Shown here one piece after another: positions 11,208-33,420 of a DNA stretch of 59,374 nucleotides; position 1 is the stretch's first letter; each line of letters starts with the position of its first letter. The notes under the pieces are model-generated. The model was not told where the DNA came from. It made no database searches and saw only the letters and a program-made list of their open reading frames with translations. The stretch covers positions 1 to 59,374 of the IMG/VR virus record IMGVR_UViG_3300036791_000807, one strand, 5' to 3'. The stretch is from a virus. The translations under genes were made by a program, and so were the position numbers.

Positions 11208-11850
11208 TGGGTACCCTCCAATGCTGGATCTGCGCCACCATGATTTCGAGGGCGGCGTCTAGGGTTGTCGTGATCGCCGCCGGATCCATAACATTGTACG
11301 GTGTCGCGGCCTGGAACACCTTACCGGGGAATAGCTCCTCAGCAGCTTCGCACATCTCCGCGAGATCGTCCAGGATCATGATGACGCGACTAGGCTCTAC
11401 TCTCTCCGCCAACTGAGCGTACTTCAACTCATCGAAGAGCAGACCATCGTACTCGATCCCGTGACGCCTGAGCCATTCGACTGTATCCGGCACGACGTTG
11501 TCGAGTGAGAGGTAGGGTCGAGTTGTCGTCATCCAAAGTTCAGCACTCATGCCCTTCGCCGTCTCACAAAGCTCGACCGCGCCTGGACGGATCGGCATGG
11601 TACGCTTCATACCTCCCTGTCGGTAGGCGAGCTTGATCTGCCGGTAGGTCTCTAGCTCGATCATGTAAGCACCCATGCACCATGTGCTAAACGGAATCGA
11701 GCCATCATACTGTTCCATGTTCTCGTCGGGATCATACCCCAGCCAATCCTCGGCGAAGCTCAGGAAGTGGTTGTGGTAGTCGCCTAACGTGCCATCAATG
11801 TCAATAGCTACTACTGGCCTGATGATTCGTCCGCAGTCGCTGCAGCGCAT
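11200..11850 (-). CDS. HAD-superfamily phosphatase / 5'-nucleotidase-like
   Basis: 216 aa from ATG 11850, chosen because GAAGGAG lies six bases upstream; an earlier ATG at 11871 lacks this. HAD motif I is VVAIDIDGTLGDYH, motif II is WMTTTRPYLS, motif III is VIMILDDLAEM. A CSDC cysteine pair stands at the N terminus. Phage enzymes of this class remove phosphates from nucleotides or nucleic-acid ends. Its N terminus overlaps the C terminus of the FAD oxidoreductase gene by 50 bases, a tight coupling. Substrate unknown. Confidence 0.82.
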   Translation of the reverse strand: MRCSDCGRIIRPVVAIDIDGTLGDYHNHFLSFAEDWLGYDPDENMEQYDGSIPFSTWCMGAYMIELETYRQIKLAYRQGGMKRTMPIRPGAVELCETAKGMSAELWMTTTRPYLSLDNVVPDTVEWLRRHGIEYDGLLFDELKYAQLAERVEPSRVIMILDDLAEMCEAAEELFPGKVFQAATPYNVMDPAAITTTLDAALEIMVAQIQHWRVPIG

Positions 11851-22287: not shown

Positions 22288-22423
22288 ACCCCACTCCTTT
22301 CTGTATACGGCCAAGCTTGTGTGTGGTGGGGAGCCCAGGCGGAGGGTACCACCGACGCCCAGGCTCCCCCATCGCGCCAAGAGCAGATCCGCTGCTCGGC
22401 GCGAACTTGCACGCGCGTCGATC
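22288..22423 (-). promoter_or_regulatory. Structured intergenic gap with two long hairpins
   Basis: The first hairpin pairs GGGGAGCC-CAGGCG with CGCC-CAGGCTCCCC; the second pairs GCGCC-A-GAGCAG with CTGCTC-GGCGC. A GGTACC lies in the loop of the first, in the reverse sense from the other gaps. The ribosome site here is AAAGGAGTGGGG rather than the GGTACC form. It is the leftmost of the series of structured gaps. Confidence 0.65.
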
Positions 22424-22693
22424 CTATTGGATCTCGCTGCGCTTCGGAAGACGACCTGCCCTAAAGCAATATGGACAAGATCTTCCAATGATCACAATCG
22501 GTTGTTTCGGCCTGGTTGGCGACTCGCGGATCAGGCGGTTGGGCCTCATCCACTCGCGCTCCGCTACCAGGAATGGTCTGCCCGCCTTGGTGCCAGGACA
22601 GTCCGCGTATCCACAGGTGACGACCAAGAAGGCAGGGAATGTCTCGCTGCGCTTCGCGGTGTACACCGGCAATCTACTCTCGATTGCTTCCAT
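22424..22693 (-). CDS. Hypothetical protein with two Cys pairs
   Basis: 89 aa from ATG 22693, with GGAGG ten bases upstream inside the preceding tiny gene. CGYADC and CPYC at about 27-32 and 73-76 may bind zinc, with basic residues between (EREWMRPNRLIRESPTRPK). It looks like a divergent zinc-finger protein. Separated from the helicase set by a double-hairpin gap. Confidence 0.65.
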   Translation of the reverse strand: MEAIESRLPVYTAKRSETFPAFLVVTCGYADCPGTKAGRPFLVAEREWMRPNRLIRESPTRPKQPIVIIGRSCPYCFRAGRLPKRSEIQ

Positions 22694-22694
22694 C

Positions 22695-22793
22695 TCAACT
22701 AAACCTCCATCTGAAGATAAGTGTCAAGATGACCAGCACCAGGATGATTAGGATCAGCTTGATCCAGCCTAGCACTGGTGGCTCATCGTGCAA
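22695..22793 (-). CDS. Tiny membrane peptide
   Basis: 32 aa from TTG 22793. The start follows AAGGAGGGTACCAA exactly as the other genes of the accessory block, which is the main support for it being real. Sequence: MHDEPPVLGW, then the span IKLILIILVLVILTLIF and a basic end RWRFS. One membrane span, N terminus acidic, C terminus basic. The stop lies two bases before the ATG of the next gene. Confidence 0.65.
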   Translation of the reverse strand: MHDEPPVLGWIKLILIILVLVILTLIFRWRFS

Positions 22794-22852
22794 TTGGTAC
22801 CCTCCTTATGAGACTTCGGGATGCGCAGGTCGAACCTGCGGCACCCGCAATC
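22794..22852 (-). promoter_or_regulatory. Structured gap with start motif (accessory block)
   Basis: On the minus strand: TGAGA, GCAGGT, loop TCG, ACCTGC, TCTCA nested into one long stem, then AAGGAGGGTACCAA and the TTG start at 22793. The inner part looks like a tRNA T-arm (GCAGGTTCGACCTGC), but no tRNA surrounds it. Confidence 0.7.
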
Positions 22853-23059
22853 TCACTTCTTGGCCCTACCTGGATCCTTCAGTCGAATGTCAGCGACGGC
22901 TACCGTGCGAAGCCCACCAGGATCGGTGTAGACTTGTACGAGCGTACGTGCGCGCTCACCGACAATCTCATCATCGATCTTGATTGGTCCTCGCGGCAGG
23001 AGCTTCTTGAGTGACAATACTCGACCCGCATCGTAGACTAGAGCGGGCATATGCCACAT
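22853..23059 (-). CDS. Hypothetical basic protein, start uncertain
   Basis: 68 aa if ATG 23059 is the start. LLPRGPIKIDDEIVGERARTL and LRTVAVADIRLKDPGRAKK give a mixed beta/basic protein of unknown family. The frame stays open upstream to 23191 and reads well (LSELQQLLEGHRIWLDFKP, DERPNPDTGRMWHMP), yet has no ATG, GTG or TTG there. An ATA at 23182 overlaps the previous stop (ATAG). Either a non-canonical start is used or the upstream part is untranslated and holds the hairpin at 23111-23154. Confidence 0.6.
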   Translation of the reverse strand: MWHMPALVYDAGRVLSLKKLLPRGPIKIDDEIVGERARTLVQVYTDPGGLRTVAVADIRLKDPGRAKK

Positions 23060-23110
23060 CCTGCCTGTATCCGGATTGGGTCTTTCGTCCGGCTTGAAGT
23101 CCAGCCAGAT

Positions 23111-23154
23111 CCGGTGACCTTCCAGAAGCTGTTGAAGCTCTGAAAGGTCACCGG
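23111..23154. repeat. Long perfect hairpin
   Basis: CCGGTGACCTT (23111-23121) pairs with AAGGTCACCGG (23144-23154), and CAGAAGCT / AGCTCTG continue the stem inside with one bulge. It lies between two leftward genes whose spacing is 119 bases. It could stop or slow transcription, or cover a start site. Confidence 0.7.
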
Positions 23155-23178
23155 TCTGACTAGCTTCGGTGGCCGCCG

Positions 23179-23697
23179 CTATGAGGGGTTTTCAGACCGC
23201 GCAGCGCGACGCTGAGCCAGAGTGCGGGCACGTCCGCGAGGACGCGCAGCCGCCGACTTGCTCTTGGTCTTGCTGCCCGACTTCGCAGCCGACGACTTCT
23301 TGGAAGAAGCCTTGGTTGCGGTGCCGGTCTTGCGGGCCGGACCCGACTTGCGATTGCCCCGACTGGGTGCCTCGTCCGCCTCACCATTCAGGGGCGGCAG
23401 AGGAGCGCTGGCGTCTCCGCCAGCCTCCTCGTACAACTCCTTGGCACGAGCGACGGACTCGCCGATGCGAGCGGCGATCAGTTCCCAGCGGTTCCGTTCG
23501 TTGTCCCGCAGGTTCATGACCGACTTCGCGGTTGCCGGCGCACTGTCCTCTCGTCCGGAATCGACGAGTGCCTGCGAGAATGCCAGCGAGGAGATCCCGC
23601 TGACGGGCAGCCCCAACTCTTCGGCGGCTGCCGAGTGCCCGATGTCCTGCTTCTGCAGCAGTTTCACGAGCTTGTCGTAGTAATCACCAACGGCCAT
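23179..23697 (-). CDS. Histone-H1-like protein with basic tail
   Basis: 172 aa from ATG 23697 with AAAGGAGGGAGCAG. The N-terminal about 100 residues are helical (DYYDKLVKLLQKQDIG, NRWELIAARIGESVARAKELY). The C-terminal part is a Lys/Ala/Ser/Arg-rich low-complexity tail (KTGTATKASSKKSSAAKSGS, then RPRGRARTLAQRRAAR), like the tails of actinobacterial DNA-binding proteins. It probably binds DNA or RNA without sequence specificity. Cargo unknown. Confidence 0.7.
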   Translation of the reverse strand: MAVGDYYDKLVKLLQKQDIGHSAAAEELGLPVSGISSLAFSQALVDSGREDSAPATAKSVMNLRDNERNRWELIAARIGESVARAKELYEEAGGDASAPLPPLNGEADEAPSRGNRKSGPARKTGTATKASSKKSSAAKSGSKTKSKSAAARPRGRARTLAQRRAARSENPS

Positions 23698-23838
23698 TCT
23701 GCTCCCTCCTTTGTAGGATAACGGCCATTAAGGGTGAGTATATAGGTAACTCACCCCCGCGTCTACCCCAAATTTCCAGGGTAAACGGGAGCCATGGGGG
23801 CTCCGGGCGGTGGCAGCTGACGCCGCCCCACCCGCAAC
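23698..23838 (-). promoter_or_regulatory. Longest structured gap of the accessory block
   Basis: 141 bases with three hairpins: GGGTGAGT/ACTCACCC (23732-23756) with TATATA in its loop, GGAGCC/GGCTCC (23788-23804) and GGGCGG/CCGCCC (23805-23828). The start motif here is AAAGGAGGGAGCAG without GGTACC. The AT-rich loop could also be a promoter. Confidence 0.6.
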
Positions 23839-24423
23839 TCACAGCTTCTCGAACGCGCTCCGATATGTGCAGAGGAAGTCTTCAACATCATCCGGCTCTC
23901 GATGCGAGATCGGCCGGGGCAGCTTGTTCATCGGGATGACCTTCTTCTTCCTGACGTCGATGCCGATGGCCTCCAGCCCCGCTCTTGTCCCAGCATGGAC
24001 ATAGATAGCTTCAGGCTTCAGCCCGAGGTACGCGCCGAACCTGACCGCGACATCGTAGACTGTCATCGGTCCGATTCCACTCGTCTTCAGGAACTCAAAC
24101 CCCGCATGAAGCGTGGCGAAGTCTCGCGATCTCATCAGCATCGGTAGATGACTGACCACTCGTCTGCGGTAGCGCGGCAGAGCCGGGCTGACCTTCGACT
24201 GGTGATTGTGCATCCTTCCGTTCGGTCGAATGCTCATCACCGCTCGATGGGCAGCGACGACCGGCGTTGGAGCTTCAGCGCACCAGGCCGGGATGTTGTC
24301 TGAGTAGCGACGAATGGGAGAGTCAGGATCGTCTCGCCTCCAGACGAAGTCACGCCACAACGCGTGCATGCTCGTCATCGGTTCCAGCGGTGGATTCTGC
24401 TCCCACACTCGCTCAATGTTCAT
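23839..24423 (-). CDS. Conserved-type protein with helix-hairpin-helix-like segment
   Basis: 194 aa from ATG 24423 after AAGGAGGGTACCA. The C-terminal half contains TSGIGPMTVYDVAVRFGAYLG, which has the GIG hairpin and following helix of DNA-glycosylase or HhH folds, and then YVHAGTRAGLEAIGI. The N-terminal half has IRPNGRMHNHQSKVS. This combination suggests a DNA-glycosylase-fold protein; a predicted family that acts on hypermodified thymines has this fold, but nothing here proves it. It is one of the larger genes in the accessory block. Confidence 0.65.
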   Translation of the reverse strand: MNIERVWEQNPPLEPMTSMHALWRDFVWRRDDPDSPIRRYSDNIPAWCAEAPTPVVAAHRAVMSIRPNGRMHNHQSKVSPALPRYRRRVVSHLPMLMRSRDFATLHAGFEFLKTSGIGPMTVYDVAVRFGAYLGLKPEAIYVHAGTRAGLEAIGIDVRKKKVIPMNKLPRPISHREPDDVEDFLCTYRSAFEKL

Positions 24424-24493
24424 TGGTACCCTCCTTTGGTGAATCGACAGGATTGTCGATTCGGAGGGGCAGCTAGGCTGCCCTACCGGATCG
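24424..24493 (-). promoter_or_regulatory. Structured gap with start motif (accessory block)
   Basis: Two perfect hairpins: GAATCGACA/TGTCGATTC (24441-24462) and GGGCAGC/GCTGCCC (24467-24483). The sequence nearest the start is AAGGAGGGTACCA then ATG 24423. This is the clearest example of the two-hairpin layout. Confidence 0.78.
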
Positions 24494-25465
24494 TCAACTA
24501 CCGATCTGCTTCCCGGATCCCGGCTTGACGCCGCGACCGGGGTGGCTGCTGATGTTGGCCCGATTGCCGGCCGACTGTCCGCTGTTGTAGGCAGCGGTGT
24601 CGAACTTGCGGCTGTTGCCTTTCACCAGTGTCCCGCGCTGTCCCATATCCGGGAACATCTGTCTCATGAACTCGCGGTTGATATCGCGCTGCTCGCGCAG
24701 AACGAGATCCATCCCGGTTCCATCGACCTTCACCTTGTTCTGAGCGTCACGCATCTCGCTCAGCCGCGAGGCTACCCGCGTTGCGAAGCCGTCCGCGAAG
24801 TTGCGGCGGTACGTCTTCCAGTTGGCGTAGTCCTGCGGGACATTCATGCGCTTGCACCAGCGGCGGTACGCATGAGCGGTCAGATGCCGAGCCTTGTCTG
24901 TCGTGACGTCCGTATGGAAGCCATGATCCTGCATGATCTTGGCCGTCTCCAGCCAATTCCATCCAGCTTCCCTGAACGTCTGAAGGTTCCGATAGTAGTC
25001 CTTGTCCGGATCGTAATGCGGACGAACCTTCTCGATCAGCTGCGTCATGAGAGATGAGAAGAGAAGCTCCATGTACGCCAGGTCGGTCTCGGTGCCGATC
25101 ACCGGAATGACGTTGGACACATACTGCTTCCGTTCTCCGCTGTAGTGCTGCTTGTGGAAGACGAGGATGCAGTTCGTGTACGATCCCACCGAGTAGAACA
25201 GACGCCACAAGGCGTCGTGGATCTCGGGGAATGGTCCGGACTCAAAGGCGAAGCCGTAATCAAAATCCTTGACAATCGGCTCGCGCTCGGAGATCCGGCC
25301 TACCTGATGCTGCTGAAGCTCCCACATCTCGATGCGGTACTTCATCATCAGTTCCTCCGCCTTGGCGAAGAAAGCGTCACGCTCACCTTCATGCGTGGAC
25401 GATTCCGCCTTGGCCAGGAGTCCCTGAATCTTGCGCATCAGGTCGTCCTTCCTGGTTTCTTTCAT
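24494..25465 (-). CDS. DUF2786-domain protein
   Basis: 323 aa from ATG 25465, which follows TGGAGGGTACCAA; a longer open frame upstream is untranslated leader. Residues about 10-50 (MRKIQGLLAKAESSTHEGERDAFFAKAEELMMKYRI) are a DUF2786 domain, a helical module found in phage and bacterial proteins of unknown function and often linked to nucleic acids. The rest is helical and basic (HLTAHAYRRWCKRMNVP), with a Gly/Ser/Asn-rich disordered C terminus. Largest protein of the accessory block. Confidence 0.8.
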   Translation of the reverse strand: MKETRKDDLMRKIQGLLAKAESSTHEGERDAFFAKAEELMMKYRIEMWELQQHQVGRISEREPIVKDFDYGFAFESGPFPEIHDALWRLFYSVGSYTNCILVFHKQHYSGERKQYVSNVIPVIGTETDLAYMELLFSSLMTQLIEKVRPHYDPDKDYYRNLQTFREAGWNWLETAKIMQDHGFHTDVTTDKARHLTAHAYRRWCKRMNVPQDYANWKTYRRNFADGFATRVASRLSEMRDAQNKVKVDGTGMDLVLREQRDINREFMRQMFPDMGQRGTLVKGNSRKFDTAAYNSGQSAGNRANISSHPGRGVKPGSGKQIGS

Positions 25466-25552
25466 TTGGTACCCTCCATTCGGCTTTCGGAACATACACC
25501 ACGTAGGTTCCAGACCGCGCCCGCCACCGCAGAGGCGGGCACGACCTGCGAC
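25466..25552 (-). promoter_or_regulatory. Structured gap with start motif (accessory block)
   Basis: Hairpins GGAAC/GTTCC and GCCCGCC/GGCGGGC, then on the minus strand TGGAGGGTACCAA and ATG 25465. Loops are longer than in the neighbouring gaps. Confidence 0.72.
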
Positions 25553-25861
25553 CTACTTGGACGCGATGCTACCAACTTCGTATGAAGCGACGACCCATTC
25601 ATCGGCGTCGTTTTGAGGATCAACTGCGAGCGCGTACCAGTGGCCGCGCCAGCCGATATCCTCATTCCGATCACGCATCTTCCAAGCATGTTCACCGATC
25701 GGATCCCAACTCTCGGCGAGCGAGTCCCAGATGTGTTCGACTCGCAACATCATCGGGATTCCTTCGGTGCCTTCCATGAGCTTCAGGTAGACGATGTCAC
25801 CCACCTTCGGCTTGGGCAGGTTGTCGTGCGGGTCGAACGGCTGAGGACTGTCCTCAAACAT
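25553..25861 (-). CDS. Hypothetical small beta-barrel-like protein
   Basis: 102 aa from ATG 25861, overlapping the stop of the upstream gene. The segment LPKPKVGDIVYLKLMEG followed by MLRVEHIWDSLAESW and WYALAVDPQNDADEWVVASYEV suggests an SH3/KOW-like fold. A longer frame upstream is only the shadow of the neighbour. Function unknown. Confidence 0.68.
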   Translation of the reverse strand: MFEDSPQPFDPHDNLPKPKVGDIVYLKLMEGTEGIPMMLRVEHIWDSLAESWDPIGEHAWKMRDRNEDIGWRGHWYALAVDPQNDADEWVVASYEVGSIASK

Positions 25862-26105
25862 CGAGCCGCAGGAGCCCTTCTTCAACCAGAAGAGCCTCAT
25901 AGGCAGCAAACACTGCCTTCTTTGTTCGTCCCGGATTGGGTCTACCAACCCCAACCAGCAGTTGACGAGCTTGCTTGGCAGGGCTGACCCGCCAGGTCGG
26001 GCCATCCGGCTTCTCGACCTCCAGCTTCAGCTTGTGATAGATCTGAAGCAGAGCGAACGCCTGAATGGCATGGGGGTTGTCAAGGATGATCGGTTGTTCG
26101 CTCAC
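25854..26105 (-). CDS. Hypothetical small protein
   Basis: 83 aa from GTG 26105, overlapping the previous stop (GTGA). Helical N terminus (NPHAIQAFALLQIYHKLKLEVE), then a basic middle (RPNPGRTKKAVFAAYEALL). Not recognised. Part of a three-gene coupled set 26341-25553. Confidence 0.65.
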   Translation of the reverse strand: MSEQPIILDNPHAIQAFALLQIYHKLKLEVEKPDGPTWRVSPAKQARQLLVGVGRPNPGRTKKAVFAAYEALLVEEGLLRLDV

Positions 26106-26341
26106 AGGTCCTCATCCTCGTCGAACGACGACGACTCCCTGACAATGTAGATCAGGTCGGTCCGGAACAGGTGCTCCTTGGAGGAGTTGTACCCATTACG
26201 CGGGAAGAACTTGATCCACTGGAAGCCATGTTCGTCCTTGAACACGATAGCGCCGTCGGCGTAGAAGTGCTCATCCTTGAAAACGACGATCAGCCGGTAG
26301 TCCAACTGGATATTGTCCTCTGAGAGAGGATCTTCGTCCAT
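26102..26341 (-). CDS. Hypothetical acidic protein
   Basis: 79 aa from ATG 26341 after AAGGAGGGTACCA. Two short echoes of FKDEH (VVFKDEHFYADG and IVFKDEHGFQW) suggest an internal duplication of a beta hairpin. Acidic C terminus (ESSSFDEDEDL). Function unknown; first of a coupled set of three genes. Confidence 0.65.
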   Translation of the reverse strand: MDEDPLSEDNIQLDYRLIVVFKDEHFYADGAIVFKDEHGFQWIKFFPRNGYNSSKEHLFRTDLIYIVRESSSFDEDEDL

Positions 26342-26411
26342 TGGTACCCTCCTTTGGTCCGTGCTCAGTCATCTGAACACGAGGCAGGGATTTCTCATCC
26401 CTGCTTCCTGC
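26342..26411 (-). promoter_or_regulatory. Structured gap, family A (GCAGGAA...CCTCGTG)
   Basis: On the minus strand: GAGCAGGAA, stem GCAGGGAT/ATCCCTGC, CTC, second stem GTGTTCAG/CTGAGCAC, then GGACC, AAAGGAGGGTACCA and ATG 26341. The block GAGCAGGAA and the linker CTC are the same in the gaps at 29270 and 30182 while the stem arms differ and still pair. Confidence 0.82.
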
Positions 26412-26684
26412 TCAGCCTGAAGGTCGCAGATCGTCTGCGGCATCCGGGTCATCCTGAAGTTCCAGGGGCAGACTCGCGATCTCCTGCATGATGTTGAAGT
26501 AGAGGAACAACATATGCTGGTTGAGAAGGGAGATGTCGGTCAGTGTCGCTGCGTTCAGAAAGTTCTGAAGCGCAACGCCAGCTGCCTCCGACGAGACGAC
26601 GAAGCCGCCGCCATCATGATCGATGGCGTGAACAATTCTACCGTCGTCCATGATCTGTTGATGGTAGAGTGCTCTGGCCTTCAT
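26412..26684 (-). CDS. Hypothetical protein
   Basis: 90 aa from ATG 26684, overlapping the previous stop. Contains GRIVHAIDHDGGGFVVSSEA and a helical half (FLNAATLTDISLLNQHMLF). No family recognised. It is coupled to the 26681-27067 gene. Confidence 0.63.
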   Translation of the reverse strand: MKARALYHQQIMDDGRIVHAIDHDGGGFVVSSEAAGVALQNFLNAATLTDISLLNQHMLFLYFNIMQEIASLPLELQDDPDAADDLRPSG

Positions 26685-27067
26685 GTTCTCACGCTCCAGT
26701 CGTCGTCCTTGCGCTCGTGCGTCTTGCCACGAGCGAAGAAGTCCTCCAGAGCATCGACAATCGTGTCGTGGTATTCACCCCACGAGCACGTGTCCACGAT
26801 CTGGTAGCCTCCGGTCGCCAGTGGCGAGTCGCTGGTCACCCAGCGATCCCAAGTCGCAAACGACTGCTGTGACTGCGGGCAGAGGCAGAGCACGATGGAC
26901 TGACGCCTGACGACGTTGCCGTTGTCATCCGTCTGCTCCGCGTAGACGTTCTCATCGATGATGATCGTGCCATTCGGGAGCTTCTGCCCAGGCTTCTTGG
27001 GGAAGCGGCTCCTATCGAGATCCAGCGGGATCTCAGACCGCTCGCCCAAGTAGGCGAACTCTTTCAT
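26681..27067 (-). CDS. Hypothetical protein
   Basis: 128 aa from ATG 27067 after GGAGGGTACCA. Mixed beta/helix: GQKLPNGTIIIDENVYAE, RRQSIVLCLCPQSQQ, IVDTCSWGEYHDTIVDALEDF, with a basic C terminus (GKTHERKDDDW). Three Cys without a clear pattern. Function unknown. Confidence 0.65.
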   Translation of the reverse strand: MKEFAYLGERSEIPLDLDRSRFPKKPGQKLPNGTIIIDENVYAEQTDDNGNVVRRQSIVLCLCPQSQQSFATWDRWVTSDSPLATGGYQIVDTCSWGEYHDTIVDALEDFFARGKTHERKDDDWSVRT

Positions 27068-27139
27068 TGGTACCCTCCTGTTCGGTCTGAAGCCAGGATT
27101 GACTTCGGCGCAGGGTTGCTTTCACAACCCTCGCCGCAA
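27068..27139 (-). promoter_or_regulatory. Structured gap with start motif (accessory block)
   Basis: Hairpins GAAG-CCAGGATTGA-CTTC and AGGGTTG/CAACCCT, then on the minus strand AGGAGGGTACCA and ATG 27067. The second stem is perfect with a short loop. Confidence 0.72.
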
Positions 27140-27421
27140 TCACCTGAGCTTAGCTACCTCATAGTGAGGCTTGATGTACTTGGCCAGGTATGCACCGCTC
27201 GACTCGGCTCGCGCCAAGGCGTTCGCCCGTTGTCGGCTGACGCCGACATAAGCGTAGCGGCTGCCATCAGCGAACTGGACGACCATCGTTTTGTTCCCGT
27301 TCTGGGGCCATCCAACCCAGTCGATATTGCTGCTTTCGACTCGGCGGATATTGAGCTTGATCGGCCCGGCTTCGGAGATGATCGTGTGCTCGTCCTTCGG
27401 CTCCCATTCACTGAGAGGCAC
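27140..27421 (-). CDS. KTSC-domain protein
   Basis: 93 aa from GTG 27421, overlapping the ParB-like gene stop (TAGTG). The stretch VESSNIDWVGW-MVVQFADGSRYAYVGVS-NALARAESSGAYLAKYIKP carries the features of the KTSC domain (Ser near the start, F-dG-Y-Y-V core, and a helix ending in A-S-G-Y-K-I). KTSC domains occur in phage and lysyl-tRNA-synthetase-associated proteins and are thought to bind RNA or proteins. Small and probably single-domain. Confidence 0.78.
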   Translation of the reverse strand: MPLSEWEPKDEHTIISEAGPIKLNIRRVESSNIDWVGWPQNGNKTMVVQFADGSRYAYVGVSRQRANALARAESSGAYLAKYIKPHYEVAKLR

Positions 27422-28230
27422 TACTTCGCTCCCTCGATGTAGCGGATCTGGAGCTTGCCGGTCTTGCGACCTCGGTTGTACATCTCGCAGATGTCCCGTG
27501 CCATCCAGTACATACGCGGGTGCCGCGAGTTGTACGCCTTGTCCTCGGCCCGACCGAGCAGGACTTGCGGGTTCTGTCCAGCAAGTATGTCGGTCAACCA
27601 GGCCATGTCCACGTCTTCGTCGCCAAAGCTCTGGAAGAACTTGCCGAGTCCACGAATCAACTCGCCTTCCTTGCCTTGCTTGCGGCCGAAGAAGCAGGCG
27701 CGCAGGACATGCAACGTTGGACTGAGGCTCTGCTTCCGCGCCAAACTACTCATGCGGTAAGCATCCTCGACGGCACGGATCGCCTGGAGCATGTTCTCCT
27801 GGCCTGCGCCGATGCCGAGCTTGTAGTCTTCCGACTCGACAATCCGATTGATGTCCATAGCCTCCCTGTTGCCGGTGACCAGGAGTGCGCGGAACTGGTA
27901 GAACGGGTGTACGCTGCGGCGATTGCGATTCTTCTTGTAGAAGAACATCGCCTCATCCGCGAGCGACATCCCCTTGTACACTGCGCACCAAGCTGCGTTC
28001 TTGAACTTCGTGCAGGCTTGGTAGCGCTGTGCTCCATCGAGGATGGCGTGTGTCCCGTTCTTCCGTTCAGCTACATCCAGCGCACCGACAAGAGTCTCGT
28101 CGAATTCAGCGATCAGCTTCTCGACAAAGACTTCCTGGGGTGGCCTCTGATATCGCAGATCGACTATAAGGTCATCGAGCGATATCAACTCGACCGTGAA
28201 CGGCCAATTGTTCACGATTCTTGTTGCCAT
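27421..28230 (-). CDS. ParB/Srx-like protein
   Basis: 269 aa from ATG 28230 after AAGGAGGGTACCAA; the upstream in-frame sequence is leader. Residues about 15-80 (ISLDDLIVDLRYQRPP ... LVGALDVAERKNGTHAILDGAQRYQAC) match the ParB N-terminal / sulfiredoxin-like fold, including the DGAQRYQA signature. The rest is helical with a Tyr/Arg-rich C terminus (YNRGRKTGKLQIRYIEG). Such proteins can be nucleases, CTP-binding switches or host-attack factors. No ParA partner is present, so plasmid-type partition is unlikely. Confidence 0.8.
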   Translation of the reverse strand: MATRIVNNWPFTVELISLDDLIVDLRYQRPPQEVFVEKLIAEFDETLVGALDVAERKNGTHAILDGAQRYQACTKFKNAAWCAVYKGMSLADEAMFFYKKNRNRRSVHPFYQFRALLVTGNREAMDINRIVESEDYKLGIGAGQENMLQAIRAVEDAYRMSSLARKQSLSPTLHVLRACFFGRKQGKEGELIRGLGKFFQSFGDEDVDMAWLTDILAGQNPQVLLGRAEDKAYNSRHPRMYWMARDICEMYNRGRKTGKLQIRYIEGAK

Positions 28231-28300
28231 TTGGTACCCTCCTTTCGGGTCTGGACATGATGTCCGGGCGGCGCAGCTTGGTGTCTGCGTCCGCCGCACA
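28231..28300 (-). promoter_or_regulatory. Structured gap with start motif (accessory block)
   Basis: Hairpins around GGACATGATGTCC (short) and GCGGCGCAG/CTGCG-CCGC (long loop), then AAAGGAGGGTACCAA and ATG 28230 on the minus strand. Confidence 0.7.
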
Positions 28301-28537
28301 TCAGGTTCGTTCCTTCTCGTCCAAGAGGACGATGACACTGACTTCTCCGGCGATGAAGGCTTCATACGAGGCTGTGGCCTCAGCTTCTGTCGCGTAGTAG
28401 CAGTTGACCTTGCCGAACTCGTCCATGAACTCCAGACGAATTGTCTCGTCTGGATCTCCTGGTCTGTACCACTTGACTCGCCTGGAGTCTGGCTTCAGCG
28501 GCCGGTCACTCTGCCAGCTTTTGTGATACGCTCTCAT
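28301..28537 (-). CDS. Hypothetical protein
   Basis: 78 aa from ATG 28537, overlapping the previous stop. Basic start (MRAYHKSWQSDRPLKPDSRR) then beta-like LEFMDEFGKVNCYYATEAEATASYEAF. Not recognised; last gene of a coupled set of four starting at 29269. Confidence 0.63.
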   Translation of the reverse strand: MRAYHKSWQSDRPLKPDSRRVKWYRPGDPDETIRLEFMDEFGKVNCYYATEAEATASYEAFIAGEVSVIVLLDEKERT

Positions 28538-28731
28538 CGATTGCTCGGCGGGTTGTTCGCGAGGTCGTGAGCAGCCGCATCGTCTTCTGCCGGGTTGCGT
28601 GCGAGTCGATTCTCACCGACCCATCCACAAGCATCGCAGTGAGCGACATAGCCGACGAAGTTGTTGGCCACATTCACAACTCGACTTACTTCAGCGAGAT
28701 GGTAATCGTAGCCGACGCCGATGTCAGTCAT
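28534..28731 (-). CDS. Hypothetical protein with CxxC
   Basis: 65 aa from ATG 28731, overlapping the previous stop. AHCDACGWVGENRLARNP carries one Cys pair of the sort seen in short zinc knuckles; the second pair is missing, though His residues could complete a site. Function unknown. Confidence 0.63.
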   Translation of the reverse strand: MTDIGVGYDYHLAEVSRVVNVANNFVGYVAHCDACGWVGENRLARNPAEDDAAAHDLANNPPSNR

Positions 28732-29087
28732 GACTTCCTCAACTTATGACGGATCTCGGCCCGCTTGGCGAGGTATGTCCGAGCGCTGCAGTCTTGGTTC
28801 TCATAGAACCAGGGCTGCAACTCCTCTTCGATGTCGCTCTCCAGGCTGCTGATTGCCATATCGGCTTCGGCCTTGCCGTCGTTGAGACCTTCGGCATAGG
28901 CCAAATCATGAGTGATCTGGACGAGCTTGACGATGCCGTCGGTATCGTCCCACCACTCTTCGGGTAGGTGATCATCCGGTGCATGGTCAATCAAGACTTC
29001 CCAGAAATGTTCTTGCCGGAAGTCCTCTGGCCGGTTGCCAGGGACCATGGATTCTGAGACCCCTGGCGGTAGGTTTGAGCCTGTCAC
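28728..29087 (-). CDS. Hypothetical acidic protein
   Basis: 119 aa from ATG 29087, overlapping the previous stop. Acidic helices (HAPDDHLPEEWWDDTDG, EADMAISSLESDIEEELQPW) and a basic end (AKRAEIRHKLRKS). Not recognised. Confidence 0.65.
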   Translation of the reverse strand: MTGSNLPPGVSESMVPGNRPEDFRQEHFWEVLIDHAPDDHLPEEWWDDTDGIVKLVQITHDLAYAEGLNDGKAEADMAISSLESDIEEELQPWFYENQDCSARTYLAKRAEIRHKLRKS

Positions 29088-29269
29088 GGTGTCACCATAT
29101 AGCCACCAGTGAACCGTGAGACGATGTGACCATCAACCGTCACGCCGTCCTCGGCGATGGCTTCCACGACAGCGTCGAGGTCGTCATACGCCCGATCAGC
29201 AACCTCAACGATTCTACAATCCTTGAGTGCCGAGTAGGTCTTGCCATCAGACAAAACCATTACATACAT
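29084..29269 (-). CDS. Hypothetical small protein
   Basis: 61 aa from ATG 29269 after AAAGGAGGGTACCAAT. VMVLSDGKTYSALKDCRIVEV suggests a small beta fold. First of a set of four overlapping genes. Confidence 0.63.
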   Translation of the reverse strand: MYVMVLSDGKTYSALKDCRIVEVADRAYDDLDAVVEAIAEDGVTVDGHIVSRFTGGYMVTP

Positions 29270-29344
29270 ATTGGTACCCTCCTTTCGTCCATGTTCAGTT
29301 TATCTGAACACGAGGCAATCCGGGTGACCCGGACTGCTTCCTGC
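29270..29344 (-). promoter_or_regulatory. Structured gap, family A
   Basis: GAGCAGGAA, stem GCAGTCCGGG/CCCGGATTGC (with a G-T pair), CTC, stem GTGTTCAG/CTGAACAT, then AAAGGAGGGTACCAAT and ATG 29269 on the minus strand. Same fixed blocks as the 26342 gap, with different stem arms that still pair. Confidence 0.82.
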
Positions 29345-29551
29345 TCAGAGCCTGGAGACGATCTTGATTGGCTTCTCGCCAATCGAGCCATCCTCCTGCT
29401 CTGTGACCTCATCGACGACAACGGTCATCAGCAAGCTATCGTTCTTCTGCTGTTCGATCCTACATGAGAATCGCAACTCACTTCTGAACCAGATATCAAC
29501 AATGCTGAGATCGTCGTCGAGATCGACGGTGTAGTGAGAGACCTCGGTCAT
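29345..29551 (-). CDS. Hypothetical small protein
   Basis: 68 aa from ATG 29551, overlapping the previous stop (TAATG). Acidic beta-like sequence (YTVDLDDDLSIVDIWFRSEL). Not recognised. Confidence 0.63.
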   Translation of the reverse strand: MTEVSHYTVDLDDDLSIVDIWFRSELRFSCRIEQQKNDSLLMTVVVDEVTEQEDGSIGEKPIKIVSRL

Positions 29552-29907
29552 TAGAAGCCCATCAGGTTCATGAGGTCGTCCTCGGTTGCGCCGATCTCGT
29601 CCAGCCGCTTGTTGGCGGTCTCATCGTCAACCAGGCCGGTCTCGATCTCGACCATGAGAGCTTGAAGCTGAGCTTTCTTGGTCGGCCTTGCTTCCGGCTC
29701 AGCCTGGTCCTCTGTGATCCAGAGTTGGCCAGAGCCGGTGCCGAGATTTGGACTGGCTCGGTAGAGCTTCCAGTGCGTCTCGCAGCCGTTGGCCCAAGGC
29801 CCCATGATCGTTGCGAAGTCGTACGGGCCTGGCGTTCCATCCTCGCAGAAGTTGCAAGCAGGGATAGACGAGACTAGGATGACTTCGTGCGGAATCAGCT
29901 TCGGCAT
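29551..29907 (-). CDS. Actinophage-type conserved protein with CxxC
   Basis: 118 aa from ATG 29907; an in-frame ATG 12 bases earlier lies inside the preceding gene. The N-terminal half (ILVSSIPACNFCEDGTPGPY, DFATIMGPWANGCETHW, RASPNLGTG) resembles a small family of zinc-binding proteins common in actinophages, with Cys-x2-Cys and a later Cys-x2-His. The C-terminal half is helical and acidic. Function unknown. Confidence 0.7.
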   Translation of the reverse strand: MPKLIPHEVILVSSIPACNFCEDGTPGPYDFATIMGPWANGCETHWKLYRASPNLGTGSGQLWITEDQAEPEARPTKKAQLQALMVEIETGLVDDETANKRLDEIGATEDDLMNLMGF

Positions 29908-29908
29908 G

Positions 29909-30181
29909 TCAGTCAACAACCCAGCCGTCAGCCTGAATGGCCTTGACGTCGGCGTAGACGATCTTCTTGCTTTCGTCCTTCATGTCGATTGTGCTGTACA
30001 TCGACTGCAGGAAGACCGTTGTCAGATGCCCTTCGACGGCCATCATGACGCCGACCTCGATCTGACCTTCCCACTTGGGATCGCTCCGCTTGACGGGCAG
30101 ACGCGGCCAGTAGGGCCACTCTATCGGAGAGGACATCATTTCCATGTCCTTCTCCGCGCCGTACATTGGCGTTAGTGCCAT
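29909..30181 (-). CDS. Hypothetical protein
   Basis: 90 aa from ATG 30181, which directly follows GGAGGGTACC. Many Met residues near the start; beta-like EGQIEVGVMMAVEGHLTTVFL. Not recognised; first of three close-packed genes. Confidence 0.63.
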   Translation of the reverse strand: MALTPMYGAEKDMEMMSSPIEWPYWPRLPVKRSDPKWEGQIEVGVMMAVEGHLTTVFLQSMYSTIDMKDESKKIVYADVKAIQADGWVVD

Positions 30182-30251
30182 GGTACCCTCCTTTGGCCGT
30201 GTTCAGGTTATTCTGAACACGAGGCAACCGTTCGTGACGGCTGCTTCCTGC
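30182..30251 (-). promoter_or_regulatory. Structured gap, family A
   Basis: GAGCAGGAA, stem GCAGCCGT/ACGGTTGC, CTC, stem GTGTTCAG/CTGAACAC, GGCC, AAAGGAGGGTACC then ATG 30181 on the minus strand. The third member of the closely matched family with the 26342 and 29270 gaps. Confidence 0.82.
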
Positions 30252-30437
30252 TCAGATGACGCGAAGTTCATCCATTACAACTTTATACTCGATGCCGTAG
30301 CGGGTGACGATAACTGCGTCGCCTGTACTTTTGCTAACGGCTTCACCTTCCCATTGAGCATGAATGTGTCTGACCTTGGAGCCGACGTAGATCGGCTCCA
30401 GGTCAGCGTCATACCCTATTGAGGAGTCTTGCGGCAT
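30252..30437 (-). CDS. Hypothetical small beta protein
   Basis: 61 aa from ATG 30437 (GGAGG nine bases upstream). IGYDADLEPIYVGSKVRHI and GDAVIVTRYGIEYKVVMDELRV look like an SH3/KOW-like barrel. It overlaps the upstream gene by 29 bases. An earlier ATG at 30470 would add 11 residues. Confidence 0.62.
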   Translation of the reverse strand: MPQDSSIGYDADLEPIYVGSKVRHIHAQWEGEAVSKSTGDAVIVTRYGIEYKVVMDELRVI

Positions 30438-30693
30438 TGCCAAGTGCCTCCCGCTTGAGGCGGTGGACACTGTAGGTATGCGTATTGACGTGACCGCGAT
30501 GTCCCTTCACGACGTACTTGTTACGCAGGGAGTCATCTTCGGTATGGCAACCGTGAGTCTCGATCACCATCACGTCCTTGCCGTTCTTCTGAATCGCCGT
30601 GCCCCAGACCGGCGGCCAACCCTCGATGAAGTATTCCTCGATGGTGTAGCCCAACGCGGCGAATGCATCGCGATGTCTTTTGCGAGTTGCCAT
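30409..30693 (-). CDS. Hypothetical protein, His-rich
   Basis: 94 aa from ATG 30693, overlapping the previous stop (TAATG). HGCHTEDDSLRNKYVVKGHRG and HTYSVHRLKREALG; several His but no clear metal site. Not recognised. Confidence 0.63.
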   Translation of the reverse strand: MATRKRHRDAFAALGYTIEEYFIEGWPPVWGTAIQKNGKDVMVIETHGCHTEDDSLRNKYVVKGHRGHVNTHTYSVHRLKREALGNAARLLNRV

Positions 30694-31238
30694 TACTGGT
30701 CACCTCGGCAGACCGGGCCAATGCCCAGTTCTCTCGATGTCTCGTCTGTGAGAGTGCGACCGCAGACATAGCAGCGGCCGATCTCGCGTCCGAACCTGGG
30801 TCCGGCATCGTCGTCCTTTTCGATGGCTGTGAGAATCCGCAGCCGCTCGGCGAGGTTCTGAACCGGCCAACGAGCATCGCTCGCCCATACATCGACAAAC
30901 GTCTTGCTGTGCCCGTTCTTGATCGAGTAGAACATCAGCGTGCCATCCTCTTTCTCGATGGCGTAGCGTCCGTCAGCGACCTGCGGCCAACCCTTCTGGG
31001 GTGAACCGGCCTGCTTGTCCTTCGGCTTCCAGGGCAGAGCGACGAGTTGCTCGATGACCGAGCTTGCTCGCCGCTTCGGCACTGTTGCGAAGTCCGTATT
31101 GCAGAGCCAGCTGATCTGCTCCTGCGTCAAGCTGGAGAGATCCTTGCCATCCCGCAATGCACTCATGTAGCTTATCTGAGGCTCTGTTGCGAGCGGTTCC
31201 TCATTTCTGAGGTGGTCTGGTATTGCAGACCTCTTCAT
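30693..31238 (-). CDS. DUF6011-type protein with C-terminal zinc knuckle
   Basis: 181 aa from ATG 31238 after TGGAGGGTACCAA. The end IGRCYVCGRTLTDETSRELG-IGPVC is the typical Cys-rich ending of DUF6011 proteins, common in actinophages (C-x2-C then GIGP-x-C). The N-terminal half (ISYMSALRDGKDLSSLTQE) is helical and may bind nucleic acid; the middle (YAIEKEDGTLMFYSIKNG) is beta-like. Probably binds zinc and DNA or RNA. Confidence 0.78.
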   Translation of the reverse strand: MKRSAIPDHLRNEEPLATEPQISYMSALRDGKDLSSLTQEQISWLCNTDFATVPKRRASSVIEQLVALPWKPKDKQAGSPQKGWPQVADGRYAIEKEDGTLMFYSIKNGHSKTFVDVWASDARWPVQNLAERLRILTAIEKDDDAGPRFGREIGRCYVCGRTLTDETSRELGIGPVCRGDQ

Positions 31239-31309
31239 TTGGTACCCTCCATTCGGTCCGCACTCATTATTGAGTACGAGGAGGCCATCTTGCGATGGCT
31301 ACCTCCTAC
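31239..31309 (-). promoter_or_regulatory. Structured gap, family A variant
   Basis: GAGTAGGAG, stem GTAGCCATC/GATGGC-TC, CTC, stem GTACTCA/TGAGTGC, then GGACCGAATGGAGGGTACCAA and ATG 31238 on the minus strand. AGTAGGAG replaces AGCAGGAA, and the right arm changes in step. Confidence 0.75.
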
Positions 31310-31408
31310 TCAGGCCTTTTTGGCGGCCTTGACCATTGCTGCGCCGACGTTGCCGAAGTTCGACTGCTTCGGATGGATGATCTGGTCGGCGATCTTGTTC
31401 TTCGTCAT
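31310..31408 (-). CDS. Tiny basic peptide
   Basis: 32 aa from ATG 31408, directly after AAGGAGGGTACCGAA, which is its main support. MTKNKIADQIIHPKQSNFG then NVGAAMVKAAKKA: short, basic, amphipathic. It stops one base before the preceding structured gap. Function unknown. Confidence 0.65.
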   Translation of the reverse strand: MTKNKIADQIIHPKQSNFGNVGAAMVKAAKKA

Positions 31409-31475
31409 TTCGGTACCCTCCTTGTAATCGTGCCCAGATGAGCACGAGGCAACGGGGGATGCCCGTTGCTTCCTG
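31409..31475 (-). promoter_or_regulatory. Structured gap, family A
   Basis: GCAGGAA, stem GCAACGGG/CCCGTTGC, CTC, stem GTGCTCA/TGGGCAC, then GATTACAAGGAGGGTACCGAA and ATG 31408 on the minus strand. Confidence 0.78.
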
Positions 31476-31556
31476 CTACCGAGCGGCTATTGCGAGCCAG
31501 GCGAACACAATCGTGAGCCACGGGGTCATAAGGCAGATCCACATGACATCGGTCAT
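31476..31556 (-). CDS. Tiny membrane peptide
   Basis: 26 aa from ATG 31556, overlapping the previous stop (ATGA). MTDVMWICLMTPW then LTIVFAWLAIAAR: one hydrophobic span. Not recognised. The stop is one base before the gap at 31409-31475. Confidence 0.55.
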   Translation of the reverse strand: MTDVMWICLMTPWLTIVFAWLAIAAR

Positions 31557-31729
31557 GACTCGTTCAATCCGAACGCCGTTGGGTCGGACTCGACAACGTC
31601 GAGATCGACGACGTCACCTTCCTTGAGGTTTGGGTGCTTCTTCGGATCCAACGTTCGGACTTCGTTGAAGCCGTCCTTGACGAAGATAACTTCATCGCGG
31701 ACCTGGATGACGGTCGCGTTGTACGTCAC
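31553..31729 (-). CDS. Hypothetical small acidic protein
   Basis: 58 aa from GTG 31729, overlapping the stop of the gene before it (GTGA). VTYNATVIQVRDEVIFVKDG then LKEGDVVDLDVVESDP suggests a small beta barrel. The frame remains open upstream but there is read through another gene. Confidence 0.62.
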   Translation of the reverse strand: MTYNATVIQVRDEVIFVKDGFNEVRTLDPKKHPNLKEGDVVDLDVVESDPTAFGLNES

Positions 31730-31875
31730 GAGATGCGGCCCATCATGAAGTCGCCATACCAGCGAGGCATGCTCGTCCACTTGATGACGCCGAAGTGGCT
31801 CGTGAGCGTGCGGCTGTTGAGGACGCGCTTCTGGATGGGGCGCTTGGTCGCGACCCTGCGGTGATGAACTCTCAT
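31726..31875 (-). CDS. Small basic protein
   Basis: 49 aa from ATG 31875 after AAGGAGGGTACCGAA. MRVHHRRVATKRPIQKRVLN then SRTLTSHFGVIKWTS: very basic N terminus, possible nucleic-acid binder. Overlaps the next gene by four bases. Easily missed because a longer open frame overlaps it in another phase. Confidence 0.68.
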   Translation of the reverse strand: MRVHHRRVATKRPIQKRVLNSRTLTSHFGVIKWTSMPRWYGDFMMGRIS

Positions 31876-31944
31876 TTCGGTACCCTCCTTGTATTGGCAG
31901 CCTTTTGGCTACCGGGATGTCGCTCGGTGAGCGACTCCCGCTAG
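31876..31944 (-). promoter_or_regulatory. Structured gap, family B
   Basis: On the minus strand: CTAGCGGGA, stem GTCGCT/AGCGAC, CCCG-GTAGCC, stem AGCC/GGCT, then AAGGAGGGTACCGAA and ATG 31875. It shares CTAGCGG and CGGTAG with the 32167 gap. Confidence 0.75.
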
Positions 31945-32166
31945 TCAACTAGCCTTGAGCTTCGGGTTGATCCTGCCGAGCGCGGCGTTGATCTTGCCGA
32001 GCGTATGCTCGTGGTTATCAACTGCCTCGTCGATCAACATGGCCGGAATGCCGTTCTTGGGTAGCTTACGTTTTGACGCTTTTGCGTCCTTGATCCTGGC
32101 CTCGATGAGAGACCTGATGTTGAGAAGGTCAAGCGCGTCGAGCGTAATGCTCGTCTCTTTGTACAT
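31945..32166 (-). CDS. Hypothetical helical protein
   Basis: 73 aa from ATG 32166 after AAGGAGGGTACCGAA. Strongly helical and basic (ALDLLNIRSLIEARIKDAKA, HEHTLGKINAALGRINPKLK). Perhaps a coiled coil. Family unknown. Confidence 0.65.
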   Translation of the reverse strand: MYKETSITLDALDLLNIRSLIEARIKDAKASKRKLPKNGIPAMLIDEAVDNHEHTLGKINAALGRINPKLKAS

Positions 32167-32240
32167 TTCGGTACCCTCCTTATTTTGATAGCCGGTTGAC
32201 TACCGGGCGGCATCGCTTGGTTATCGATGACCGCCGCTAG
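32167..32240 (-). promoter_or_regulatory. Structured gap, family B
   Basis: CTAGCGGCGG-TCATCG, loop, GCGATG-CCGCC, then CGGTAGTC/GGCTATC stem and AAGGAGGGTACCGAA with ATG 32166 on the minus strand. Arms differ from the 31876 gap but keep pairing. Confidence 0.75.
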
Positions 32241-32510
32241 TCACGACTTGATCGACTTGATCCAGTCAAATATCGAGCGAACTGCCGCTCCGATGTCGTT
32301 CTCCAACTCCATCGCAGCGTCGCCGCCGGTCTCGGTATGGGGCTCGTACAACTCCCAATCGTTGCCTCTTCCCATCGCAGAGTAGAGCTTGCCGTCGCGT
32401 TCTTCCCAACGGATCTTGCCGTACTCGGCATCGTTCGAGGTGACTTCGATCCATCCGTCGGTCAGGTCGATCTCGATGCCTAGCAGATATGAAGTAAATG
32501 GCGTCTTCAT
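32241..32510 (-). CDS. Hypothetical acidic protein
   Basis: 89 aa from ATG 32510, overlapping the previous stop (ATGA). FTSYLLGIEIDLTDGWIEVT, then WELYEPHTETGGDAAMELEN and a C-terminal helix SIFDWIKSIKS. Not recognised. Confidence 0.65.
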   Translation of the reverse strand: MKTPFTSYLLGIEIDLTDGWIEVTSNDAEYGKIRWEERDGKLYSAMGRGNDWELYEPHTETGGDAAMELENDIGAAVRSIFDWIKSIKS

Positions 32511-32905
32511 TCGCTTTTGGCCTCGTTGTAGTCCGCGAGCAACTGCTCGACATTGTAACCGTACGGATGGAACCCGAGGTCCCATTGCGCGTTGAAGGAG
32601 CGGCGTAGCACCGGCTCAAGCAGATCGCAGCCGGCATACGCAACCCAAGCGCCTTCTTTGGGGTTCTCGGTCTCGTCGATGATCGCCGAGATCCAATCGC
32701 GGATCTCCTTGAGCATGTCAAGATCGTTCTTCTTGAGTCCGCCCTCATCGCGGATCGTCGTCATACCCGAGAACGGGTATTGGGCGGCTGCCATGAGGCC
32801 GCTTCCCGGTTGCGAATCGCGATATTGATCTGAGCCTACCTCGTTGCCGAGGTAGTTGTCGAGCGCCCATTTCTTCACTTCTTGAGGTAGCTCCTCGATC
32901 TTCAT
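32507..32905 (-). CDS. Hypothetical protein
   Basis: 132 aa from ATG 32905 after TGGAGGGTACCAAA; the in-frame upstream part is leader. Acidic helices (LPQEVKKWALDNYLGNEVG, LKEIRDWISAIIDETENP) and aromatic C terminus (WDLGFHPYGYNVEQLLADY). Family unknown. Confidence 0.67.
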   Translation of the reverse strand: MKIEELPQEVKKWALDNYLGNEVGSDQYRDSQPGSGLMAAAQYPFSGMTTIRDEGGLKKNDLDMLKEIRDWISAIIDETENPKEGAWVAYAGCDLLEPVLRRSFNAQWDLGFHPYGYNVEQLLADYNEAKSE

Positions 32906-32976
32906 TTTGGTACCCTCCATTTCGGCTTTTCGCACTCGGTTGAGTACGAGGAGGGGCGGATTTGCCGCCCTACCTC
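32906..32976 (-). promoter_or_regulatory. Structured gap, family A variant
   Basis: CTAGGAGG, stem GTAGGGCGG/CCGCCC-C, CTC, stem GTACTCA/GAGTGC, AAATGGAGGGTACCAAA and ATG 32905 on the minus strand. Confidence 0.72.
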
Positions 32977-33270
32977 CTAGTCTCCGATGTGCGCGAGGCA
33001 CAAGTGTTTTGAACCTTTCTTCACTTGCGCTCTCGCTTTACATCTCGTTCCGCCTACTTGGATCATCAAGGTGTAATGCGTTCCGTCCTTCCGCTTGCGC
33101 CGGATCGGGACTTTCTTGCCGCCCTCGACATGAGCGCAGATTGAATTCGGAAGCCGCTCGGACGGCTTGTTCTTCCGTCCAACGAACTTCGGAGCCATCG
33201 GGCTAAGTTGCCCTCTTGGCGTTACGTCCGCCTTGATCTGCGCGCGGAGCTTTCTTGTCGCTTTGTCCAT
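32977..33270 (-). CDS. Hypothetical basic Cys/His protein, first gene of the accessory block
   Basis: 97 aa from ATG 33270 after AGGAGGGTACCG. Basic N terminus (MDKATRKLRAQIKADVTPRG), a middle VPIRRKRKDGTHYTLMIQ and Cys and His residues (ICAHVEGG, RCKARAQVKKGSKHLCLAH) that could hold a zinc ion. It is the first gene of the leftward unit after the control region. Confidence 0.67.
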   Translation of the reverse strand: MDKATRKLRAQIKADVTPRGQLSPMAPKFVGRKNKPSERLPNSICAHVEGGKKVPIRRKRKDGTHYTLMIQVGGTRCKARAQVKKGSKHLCLAHIGD

Positions 33271-33420
33271 CGGTACCCTCCTTTTTGAACGGGGATCCGT
33301 TCATCCAGCGGGGGTTTCGCGTTCGCGATTTGCCCGCTCGATGAACGGAGGGATGACGTCGGGATGACGCCTTCCCTCCGTTCGGCCGTAAGGAGGGGGT
33401 ACCAATCCCCTCAAGTCCGC
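33271..33420 (-). promoter_or_regulatory. Leader of the accessory operon with two long hairpins
   Basis: TCCGTTCATC-AGCGGG pairs with CCCGCT-GATGAACGGA (33296-33357) and GAACGGAGGG pairs with CCCTCCGTTC (33352-33382); the two share GAACGGA, so they may be mutually exclusive. AGGAGGGTACCG precedes ATG 33270. A second GGTACC at 33398-33403 occurs in the opposite sense (AAGGAGGGGGTACC). Confidence 0.65.

Follow-up and report, generated by a model that had tools for sequence, protein, structure and literature searches.

A repeated start-associated motif in an uncultured phage, its covarying spacers, and a single conserved hairpin with a complementary loop

Start-associated sequences (SAS) have been described in the cluster K mycobacteriophages, which carry 11–19 copies of GGGATAGGAGCCC at gene starts, about half of them with upstream 17-bp repeats (extended SAS, or ESAS) (Pope 2011, PMC3203893). 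The same authors judged that the extended repeats give no support for base pairing at the RNA level; they also recorded, in K1 genomes, one SAS copy on the complementary strand (PMC3203893). Start-associated sequences are also reported from Microbacterium phages of cluster EF (PMC7302621), and the ESAS of phage Adephagia contain SigA-like promoters (PMC11373665). Here we describe a similar arrangement in the 59,374-bp uncultured virus record IMGVR_UViG_3300036791_000807 of IMG/VR, the whole of which is referred to as the window. Its minus strand contains a block of small accessory genes in which the motif GGAGGGTACC stands at gene starts behind structured spacers, and a single hairpin, missed by an earlier note on this DNA, displays the exact reverse complement of the motif in its loop. 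This antisense hairpin, present once per genome, is the best candidate for the agent that acts on the block.

The window resembles clusters K and EF in having 10–20 conserved copies of a motif at the ribosome-binding position of non-structural accessory genes, with large gaps and additional upstream repeats, and resembles the K1 phages in having one complementary-strand copy, located here in a hairpin loop. It differs in the motif itself, GGAGGGTACC as compared with GGGATAGGAGCCC / GGGAAAGGACCCC in clusters K and EF; no match to the 13-bp GGGATAGGAGCCC with up to two mismatches was found near starts in the window, and what is shared is the placement of the motif, in a single orientation and within a few nucleotides of the starts of non-structural genes. 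The earlier note's comparison with cluster K was apt, with the qualification that pairing within the ESAS is disputed by the authors who described them, whereas the spacers of the window's phage family do pair and covary strongly; in place of a conserved 17-bp imperfect inverted repeat they have stems that vary and covary.

A repeated start motif and the loop that complements it

Sixteen exact copies of GGAGGGTACC are present in the window, against 0.05 expected by chance. Fourteen of them lie in the minus-strand accessory block, in gaps between 33281 and 22796, where they stand behind two-hairpin spacers and 0–5 nt before an ATG or TTG, in a single orientation and at a near-fixed distance from the starts. 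A fifteenth sense copy, elsewhere in the window, precedes a TTG and has no structured spacer (folding z −0.4), and the sixteenth is on the opposite strand. The earlier note had excepted two gaps, 22288 and 23698, from an otherwise general occurrence of the motif; it is indeed found in 14 minus-strand gaps and is absent from gap 23698, but gap 22288 holds its exact reverse complement in a loop. The motif begins as a Shine-Dalgarno (SD) sequence, with a conserved GTACC reaching beyond the SD core, and its duplex with the 16S anti-SD is predicted at −12.1 kcal/mol, compared to −22.4 for a consensus SD. Many of the window motifs (22796–33281) are preceded by ACC(N)AAA, and a tiny hairpin around the SD core could form between ACC and GGT.

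The reverse complement, GGTACCCTCC, lies in the loop at the tip of a 14-bp hairpin. Eleven other uncultured phage records with 2–15 copies each and the same architecture were recovered when IMG/VR was scanned for the motif followed by a start; a scan of GTDB gave single copies only. Nine records (G000–G005, G008, G010 and G011) contain exactly one opposite-strand copy, and this is always located in the apical loop of a GC-rich hairpin. The hairpin has the same place in each of the nine: it follows a gene for a small CxxC protein, at the block's downstream end. The reversed pattern, used as a control, has no copies on either strand in any of the 15 records. Records G007, G009 and G012 have no opposite-strand copy, and these end inside or near the block; in the more distant record G006 a 9/10 copy occupies the loop of a stable hairpin in the same arrangement. 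The two arms of the stem pair at 12 of 12 positions within their own genome, compared to an average of 9.0 of 12 between arms of different genomes (one bulged base in G001 was set aside), and the loop bases are invariant across the nine records. In the relatives the noncoding hairpin region opens with AAGCTCGCGGCG.

Motif and hairpin also occur together. The strongest hairpins found in an IMG/VR scan for the hairpin pattern are confined to records of the window's phage family, and motif, anti-motif and hairpin are all absent from seven records in which a relative of the neighbouring CxxC protein is encoded. Duplexes of 10–11 bp between loop and motif are predicted at −22 to −28 kcal/mol at 15 motif starts, whereas the best at other starts is −19 and the median −14. 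The predicted fold is conserved with an exposed seed, and its complementarity to the putative targets is extended, as expected of phage trans-acting antisense small RNAs. The earlier suggestion that the self-complementary GGTACC might allow loop contacts came near the mark, but the partner is a separate conserved hairpin. A near copy of the anti-motif, GGTACCCCCTCCTT, is located at 33391–33409 (minus strand), just before the first gene of the block and at the opposite end from the hairpin; it is not clearly within a loop.

Structured spacers and their covariation

The 75 nt preceding each of the 14 block motifs fold with z scores of −2.6 to −7.0 relative to dinucleotide shuffles, and for 13 of the 14 none of 100 shuffles folds as well, bearing out the hairpins that the earlier note had seen in the gaps; the stem arms that it quoted are present at 26352, 30191 and 31421. 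The spacers sit exactly between the upstream stop and the next start. Fixed GAGCAGGAA...CTC flanks could not be sustained, however, as exact GAGCAGGAA is present in only three gaps (26405, 29338 and 30245), with TAGCAGGAA at 31470, a related TAGGAGG form at 31250 and 32918, and other flanks, such as TGATGTGCGG...CCGGACATCA, in the remainder. The same folding is seen among 118 motif sites extracted from 12 records, the near-duplicate G007 being excluded: in each record z is below −2 for at least 75% of the 75-nt stretches that precede the motif, and the medians range from −3.7 to −5.4, beside a median of −0.3 for control windows of the window genome.

Covariation was evaluated in an alignment (A1) of 29 hand-chosen spacers of one class. 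In hairpin 1, 91.8% of cells are paired, compared to 55.7% after shuffling and 37–47% in slides, with both-sided changes at seven of eight pairs and a covariation of 0.90 vs 0.22. Hairpin 2 is 91.3% paired vs 82.9% shuffled. In a third helix the strand holding the upstream stop codon pairs with the 5′ arm of hairpin 2 (97.0% paired vs 91.9% shuffled; slides 17–59%), and the outer part of this helix and hairpin 2 are mutually exclusive, and both have been retained. When 90 spacers from all the classes are taken together, the complementarity between six bases from the stop codon and the strand-2 region exceeds that in all 2000 shuffles, and the result stands when shuffling is only among identical stop codons. 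For the spacer at 28303–28233 the stop-codon helix is the predicted ground state, with a predicted flip to hairpin 2 when the first 12 nt are held open, as by a terminating ribosome; in GAGCAGG-class spacers the two-hairpin state is predicted to be already favoured. Conserved unpaired or mismatched positions (columns 9/47 and 12/44) stand beside the variable stems of A1, and a G-G mismatch is conserved in the spacers.

A covariance model built from the A1 class also matches spacers of other classes and near-motif sites in the relatives. On control contigs it gave few and weak matches, the best of which (24.3 bits) is in the range of the weaker spacers. The elements recur in other phages before homologous as well as unrelated genes, which the earlier note had named as support for its proposal, and neither outcome that would have undone its proposal, a lack of covariation or loss of the hairpins while the motif stays, was observed. 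Homologous accessory genes in different phages usually keep the motif but often have a different spacer class, which suggests from the sequences that spacers are exchanged as if independently of the genes. Record G012 (L240) has 16 near-motif copies (GGAGGGTACT, GGAGGGTGCC, GGAGGGTATC and others) besides 10 exact ones, a sign, perhaps, of a diversifying motif; the antisense hairpin of this record would fall beyond the end of the contig.

No intrinsic terminator is listed on the minus strand in any spacer or at the anti-start hairpin, and no T run follows them. An Rfam search at gathering and at permissive scores gave no relevant match that would explain the elements. Resemblance to integron attC sites was considered and dropped, as there are no conserved terminal core sites and the elements lie between stop and start in runs of cistrons.

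Proposed antisense control of the block and its alternatives

We consider it rather likely that the block is controlled by an antisense hairpin RNA which the phage encodes and which pairs with the ribosome-binding sites there, with the spacers insulating the genes. The block would then constitute a phage RNA regulon in which an extended ribosome-binding motif (AAGGAGGGTACC plus start) serves for the translation of each accessory cistron, or of each short group of them. The exact complement, UGGUACCCUCC, would be displayed in the loop of a single hairpin RNA, encoded at the block's downstream end and on the same strand. Pairing of the loop with every motif over 10–11 bp would block 30S loading, and accumulation of the antisense RNA would shut down the entire block together as a delayed negative feedback. 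The spacers make sense with antisense control because they would stop ribosomes of the preceding gene from bypassing it: hairpin 1, hairpin 2 and the alternative helix that traps the upstream stop may hinder re-initiation or run-through by finishing ribosomes, such that no gene could be translated except from its own motif, and all would remain accessible to the antisense RNA. That the hairpin is transcribed as RNA, that it pairs in the cell, that the direction is repression and that the spacers insulate we infer from sequence and predicted structure.

A counterpart is present in cluster K. In Adephagia and Anaya a noncoding gap of ~390–430 bp contains a long hairpin whose loop is the complementary SAS copy, and in eight K1/K5-type genomes the complementary loop is kept at one conserved place with varying stems; in Adephagia a putative RNA across 58.60–58.88 kb would carry GGCCTCCTATCCC. 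Late transcription in Adephagia appears to start in the noncoding gap holding this loop (PMC11373665), and antisense production may therefore be timed to the early-late switch. That one antisense RNA commands 10–15 or more genes through a shared motif and stop-embracing spacers, and that the same principle with a different motif operates in the K1/K5 phages and explains their SAS, we put forward tentatively, as falling a little short of probable.

Several points weigh against antisense control. The duplex energies disregard loop strain, the motif overlaps the SD core so that the loop pairs with other starts too, and the predicted unpaired probability of the motif in local folds is ~0.47–0.49, from which accessibility is not claimed. 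The shuffle controls leave shared ancestry in, and A1 was hand-picked from one spacer class. No promoter could be clearly recognised for the hairpin RNA; in most records the upstream stop shares bases with a TAGNNT-like hexamer, but this has no −35 and is unconvincing. A universal antisense hairpin among phages with SAS is not upheld either: K4 and K6 phages have the motif with imperfect loops (9 pairs with a bulge; 8/10 pairs), DarthP/Unicorn keep the K motif with degenerate loops, and no such hairpin was found in TM4, Pixie or the cluster EF phage Crestdrop (10 motifs). Generalisation beyond the window's phage family is thus partial.

The alternative that survives best, although we think it unlikely, is that the elements act only in cis, with RNase III-type cleavage or decay-blocking hairpins cutting polycistronic mRNA into single-gene messages, the motif serving merely for strong ribosome binding and the anti-motif hairpin regulating, locally, the gene that follows it. 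Both the position and strong folding of the spacers agree with this, as does the near-motif GGAGGGTACT at the gene following the hairpin in several records, but it does not explain why GTACC beyond the SD core is kept, or why a single loop matching all ten motif bases is retained in three records (G000, G001 and G011) in which the next gene has no motif. Cis control of the next gene alone, as the main role of the hairpin, is rejected on the latter ground. To our knowledge, neither a conserved G-G mismatch nor stop-codon pairing is a feature of known RNase III sites.

The earlier note had proposed a common RNA-level control, and a structure is indeed shared over the whole block, but nothing points specifically to the RNase III or the binding protein that it named. 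A phage or host RNA-binding protein, acting as a translational regulator that reads hairpins and motif with the reverse copy as a decoy, is in our view improbable. The conserved unpaired and mismatched positions of A1 look like protein contacts; a decoy, however, would be expected to hold the sense motif rather than its complement, and there is no RNA-binding protein among the block genes tested, though most are without a family. It is very doubtful that the antisense RNA acts positively, stabilising mRNAs that carry the motif, or is itself sponged, the motifs titrating an RNA that has another main target. The motif copies do outnumber the single hairpin, and the loop includes the general anti-SD core CCUCC, but the complement extends over the entire motif, GTACC included, as would be expected if the motif were the main target. 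Least probable of all is that GGAGGGTACC works at the DNA level as a double-stranded operator or as an element of a promoter, a role now proposed for the cluster K ESAS with their SigA-like promoters (PMC11373665) and one that a promoter-like palindromic stretch in gap 23698 might suggest, since the stems change from gap to gap while pairing stays, the motif keeps one orientation and a near-fixed distance to starts, and promoter-like matches are few and none is consistently at the motif.

Surroundings of the block and significance

The window encodes a contractile-tailed phage, with terminase, portal, tail sheath and tape measure genes on the plus strand, and DNA polymerase, primase, helicase and the accessory block on the minus strand (Table 1). 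Most of the block genes tested have no protein family. For two window proteins tested, identity to the nearest isolate proteins is ~30–42%, and many of these come from actinobacteriophages. A search of the phage collection found no relative of the accessory block at the DNA level, no cultured relative was found at the DNA level or for the protein adjoining the hairpin, and IMG/VR protein-query scans with the helicase and the DUF2786 protein gave no matches. The motif-less gap at 23698–23838 (minus strand) includes the sequence GGGTGAGTTACCTATATACTCACCC, in which a TATACT hexamer is covered by an almost perfect palindrome; a −35-like TAGACG is 17 nt away, and the whole looks like a promoter plus operator for the gene at 23697.

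Table 1. Coordinates of the start motif, spacers and hairpin region in the window
Feature	Coordinates	Strand	Basis
Structured spacer + start motif, before gene 33270, first of block	33272..33345	-	folding z
Structured spacer (hairpins 1 and 2) + start motif	32909..32983	-	folding z, covariance model
Structured spacer + start motif	32170..32243	-	folding z, covariance model
Structured spacer + start motif	31879..31947	-	folding z, covariance model
Structured spacer + start motif, TAGCAGGAAG class	31412..31480	-	folding z, alignment A1, covariance model
Structured spacer + start motif, GAGTAGGAGG class, before DUF6011 gene	31241..31312	-	alignment A1, covariance model
Structured spacer + start motif, GAGCAGGAAG class	30182..30254	-	alignment A1, covariance model
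Structured spacer + start motif, GAGCAGGAAG class	29273..29347	-	alignment A1, covariance model
Structured spacer + start motif, stop-codon helix TGATGT/ACATCA, before DUF6551 gene	28233..28303	-	stop-strand test
Structured spacer + start motif, stop-codon helix class	27069..27142	-	stop-strand test, covariance model
Structured spacer + start motif, GAGCAGGAAG class	26343..26414	-	alignment A1, covariance model
Structured spacer + start motif, before DUF2786 gene	25468..25555	-	folding z, covariance model
Structured spacer + start motif	24425..24496	-	folding z, covariance model
Structured spacer + start motif (TTG start), upstream TGA within first strand	22796..22855	-	folding z, stop-strand test
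Small CxxC protein gene, 89 aa, no Pfam family, directly upstream of hairpin	22424..22693	-	protein comparison
Noncoding gap with putative antisense RNA	22288..22423	-	sequence/fold comparison
Hairpin A of same noncoding region, CGCGCCgAGCAG/CTGCTcTTGGCGCG	22373..22403	-	sequence/fold comparison
Anti-start hairpin, stem GGGGAGCCTGGGCG/CGCCTGGGCTCCCC, apical loop with GGTACCCTCC at 22350-22341	22328..22369	-	one per genome, stem covaries, loop invariant
Lone start motif before TTG, no structured spacer	11210..11219	-	motif search, folding z

The hairpin is followed by a tRNA-like acceptor/T-arm in G002, G003, G008, G010 and G011, with a fuller version in G004 and one displaced downstream in G005; in the window and G001 it is missing and only its edges are kept, the window retaining CAAGC-TTGGCCGT. 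The element (L229, L230, L236, L238 and L239; fuller form in L231) has an acceptor stem and a T arm together with a D-loop-like TGG stretch, and lacks an anticodon arm. ARAGORN calls no tRNA on this arm, which has acceptor and T arm only, and that of G004 gives a weak tRNA-Sec match (16.5 bits). It may be a 3′-end processing signal.

Phage trans-acting small RNAs, including VpdS of VP882, PreS of lambda and sar of P22, have been reviewed (PMC12197685). The putative hairpin RNA is like these a phage noncoding RNA expected to pair with mRNAs, but those reviewed are not described as pairing with one motif repeated over a gene block, whereas here 10–15 starts share the target motif. In staphylococci, C-rich hairpin loops of RNAIII and RsaE pair with the SD regions of many mRNAs; the likeness lies in a C-rich loop and several ribosome-binding sites, and the difference in that theirs is a short generic UCCC seed acting on host genes, whereas the loop described here complements a dedicated phage motif over its full length. 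Three strands with mutually exclusive pairings, one of them embracing a stop codon, are likewise found in transcription attenuators and translational-coupling hairpins; unlike these, the spacers have no leader peptide that we could see and no terminator U-run, and are repeated before many genes. No description of an antisense partner of start-associated sequences was found in the literature searched, and while SAS and phage antisense RNAs are each known, we could find no earlier description of their combination, in which one RNA is directed at a motif repeated at ribosome-binding sites.

The role of phage start-associated sequences has been open since 2011, and the one conserved loop complement per genome provides a first concrete partner for them. 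A laboratory phage in which to test the antisense idea already exists (Adephagia on M. smegmatis). If true, the idea would represent a compact wiring of one RNA to exchangeable accessory genes, in which a new gene joins by gaining a spacer and motif, and would lend itself naturally to designs in which one orthogonal antisense RNA switches many genes.

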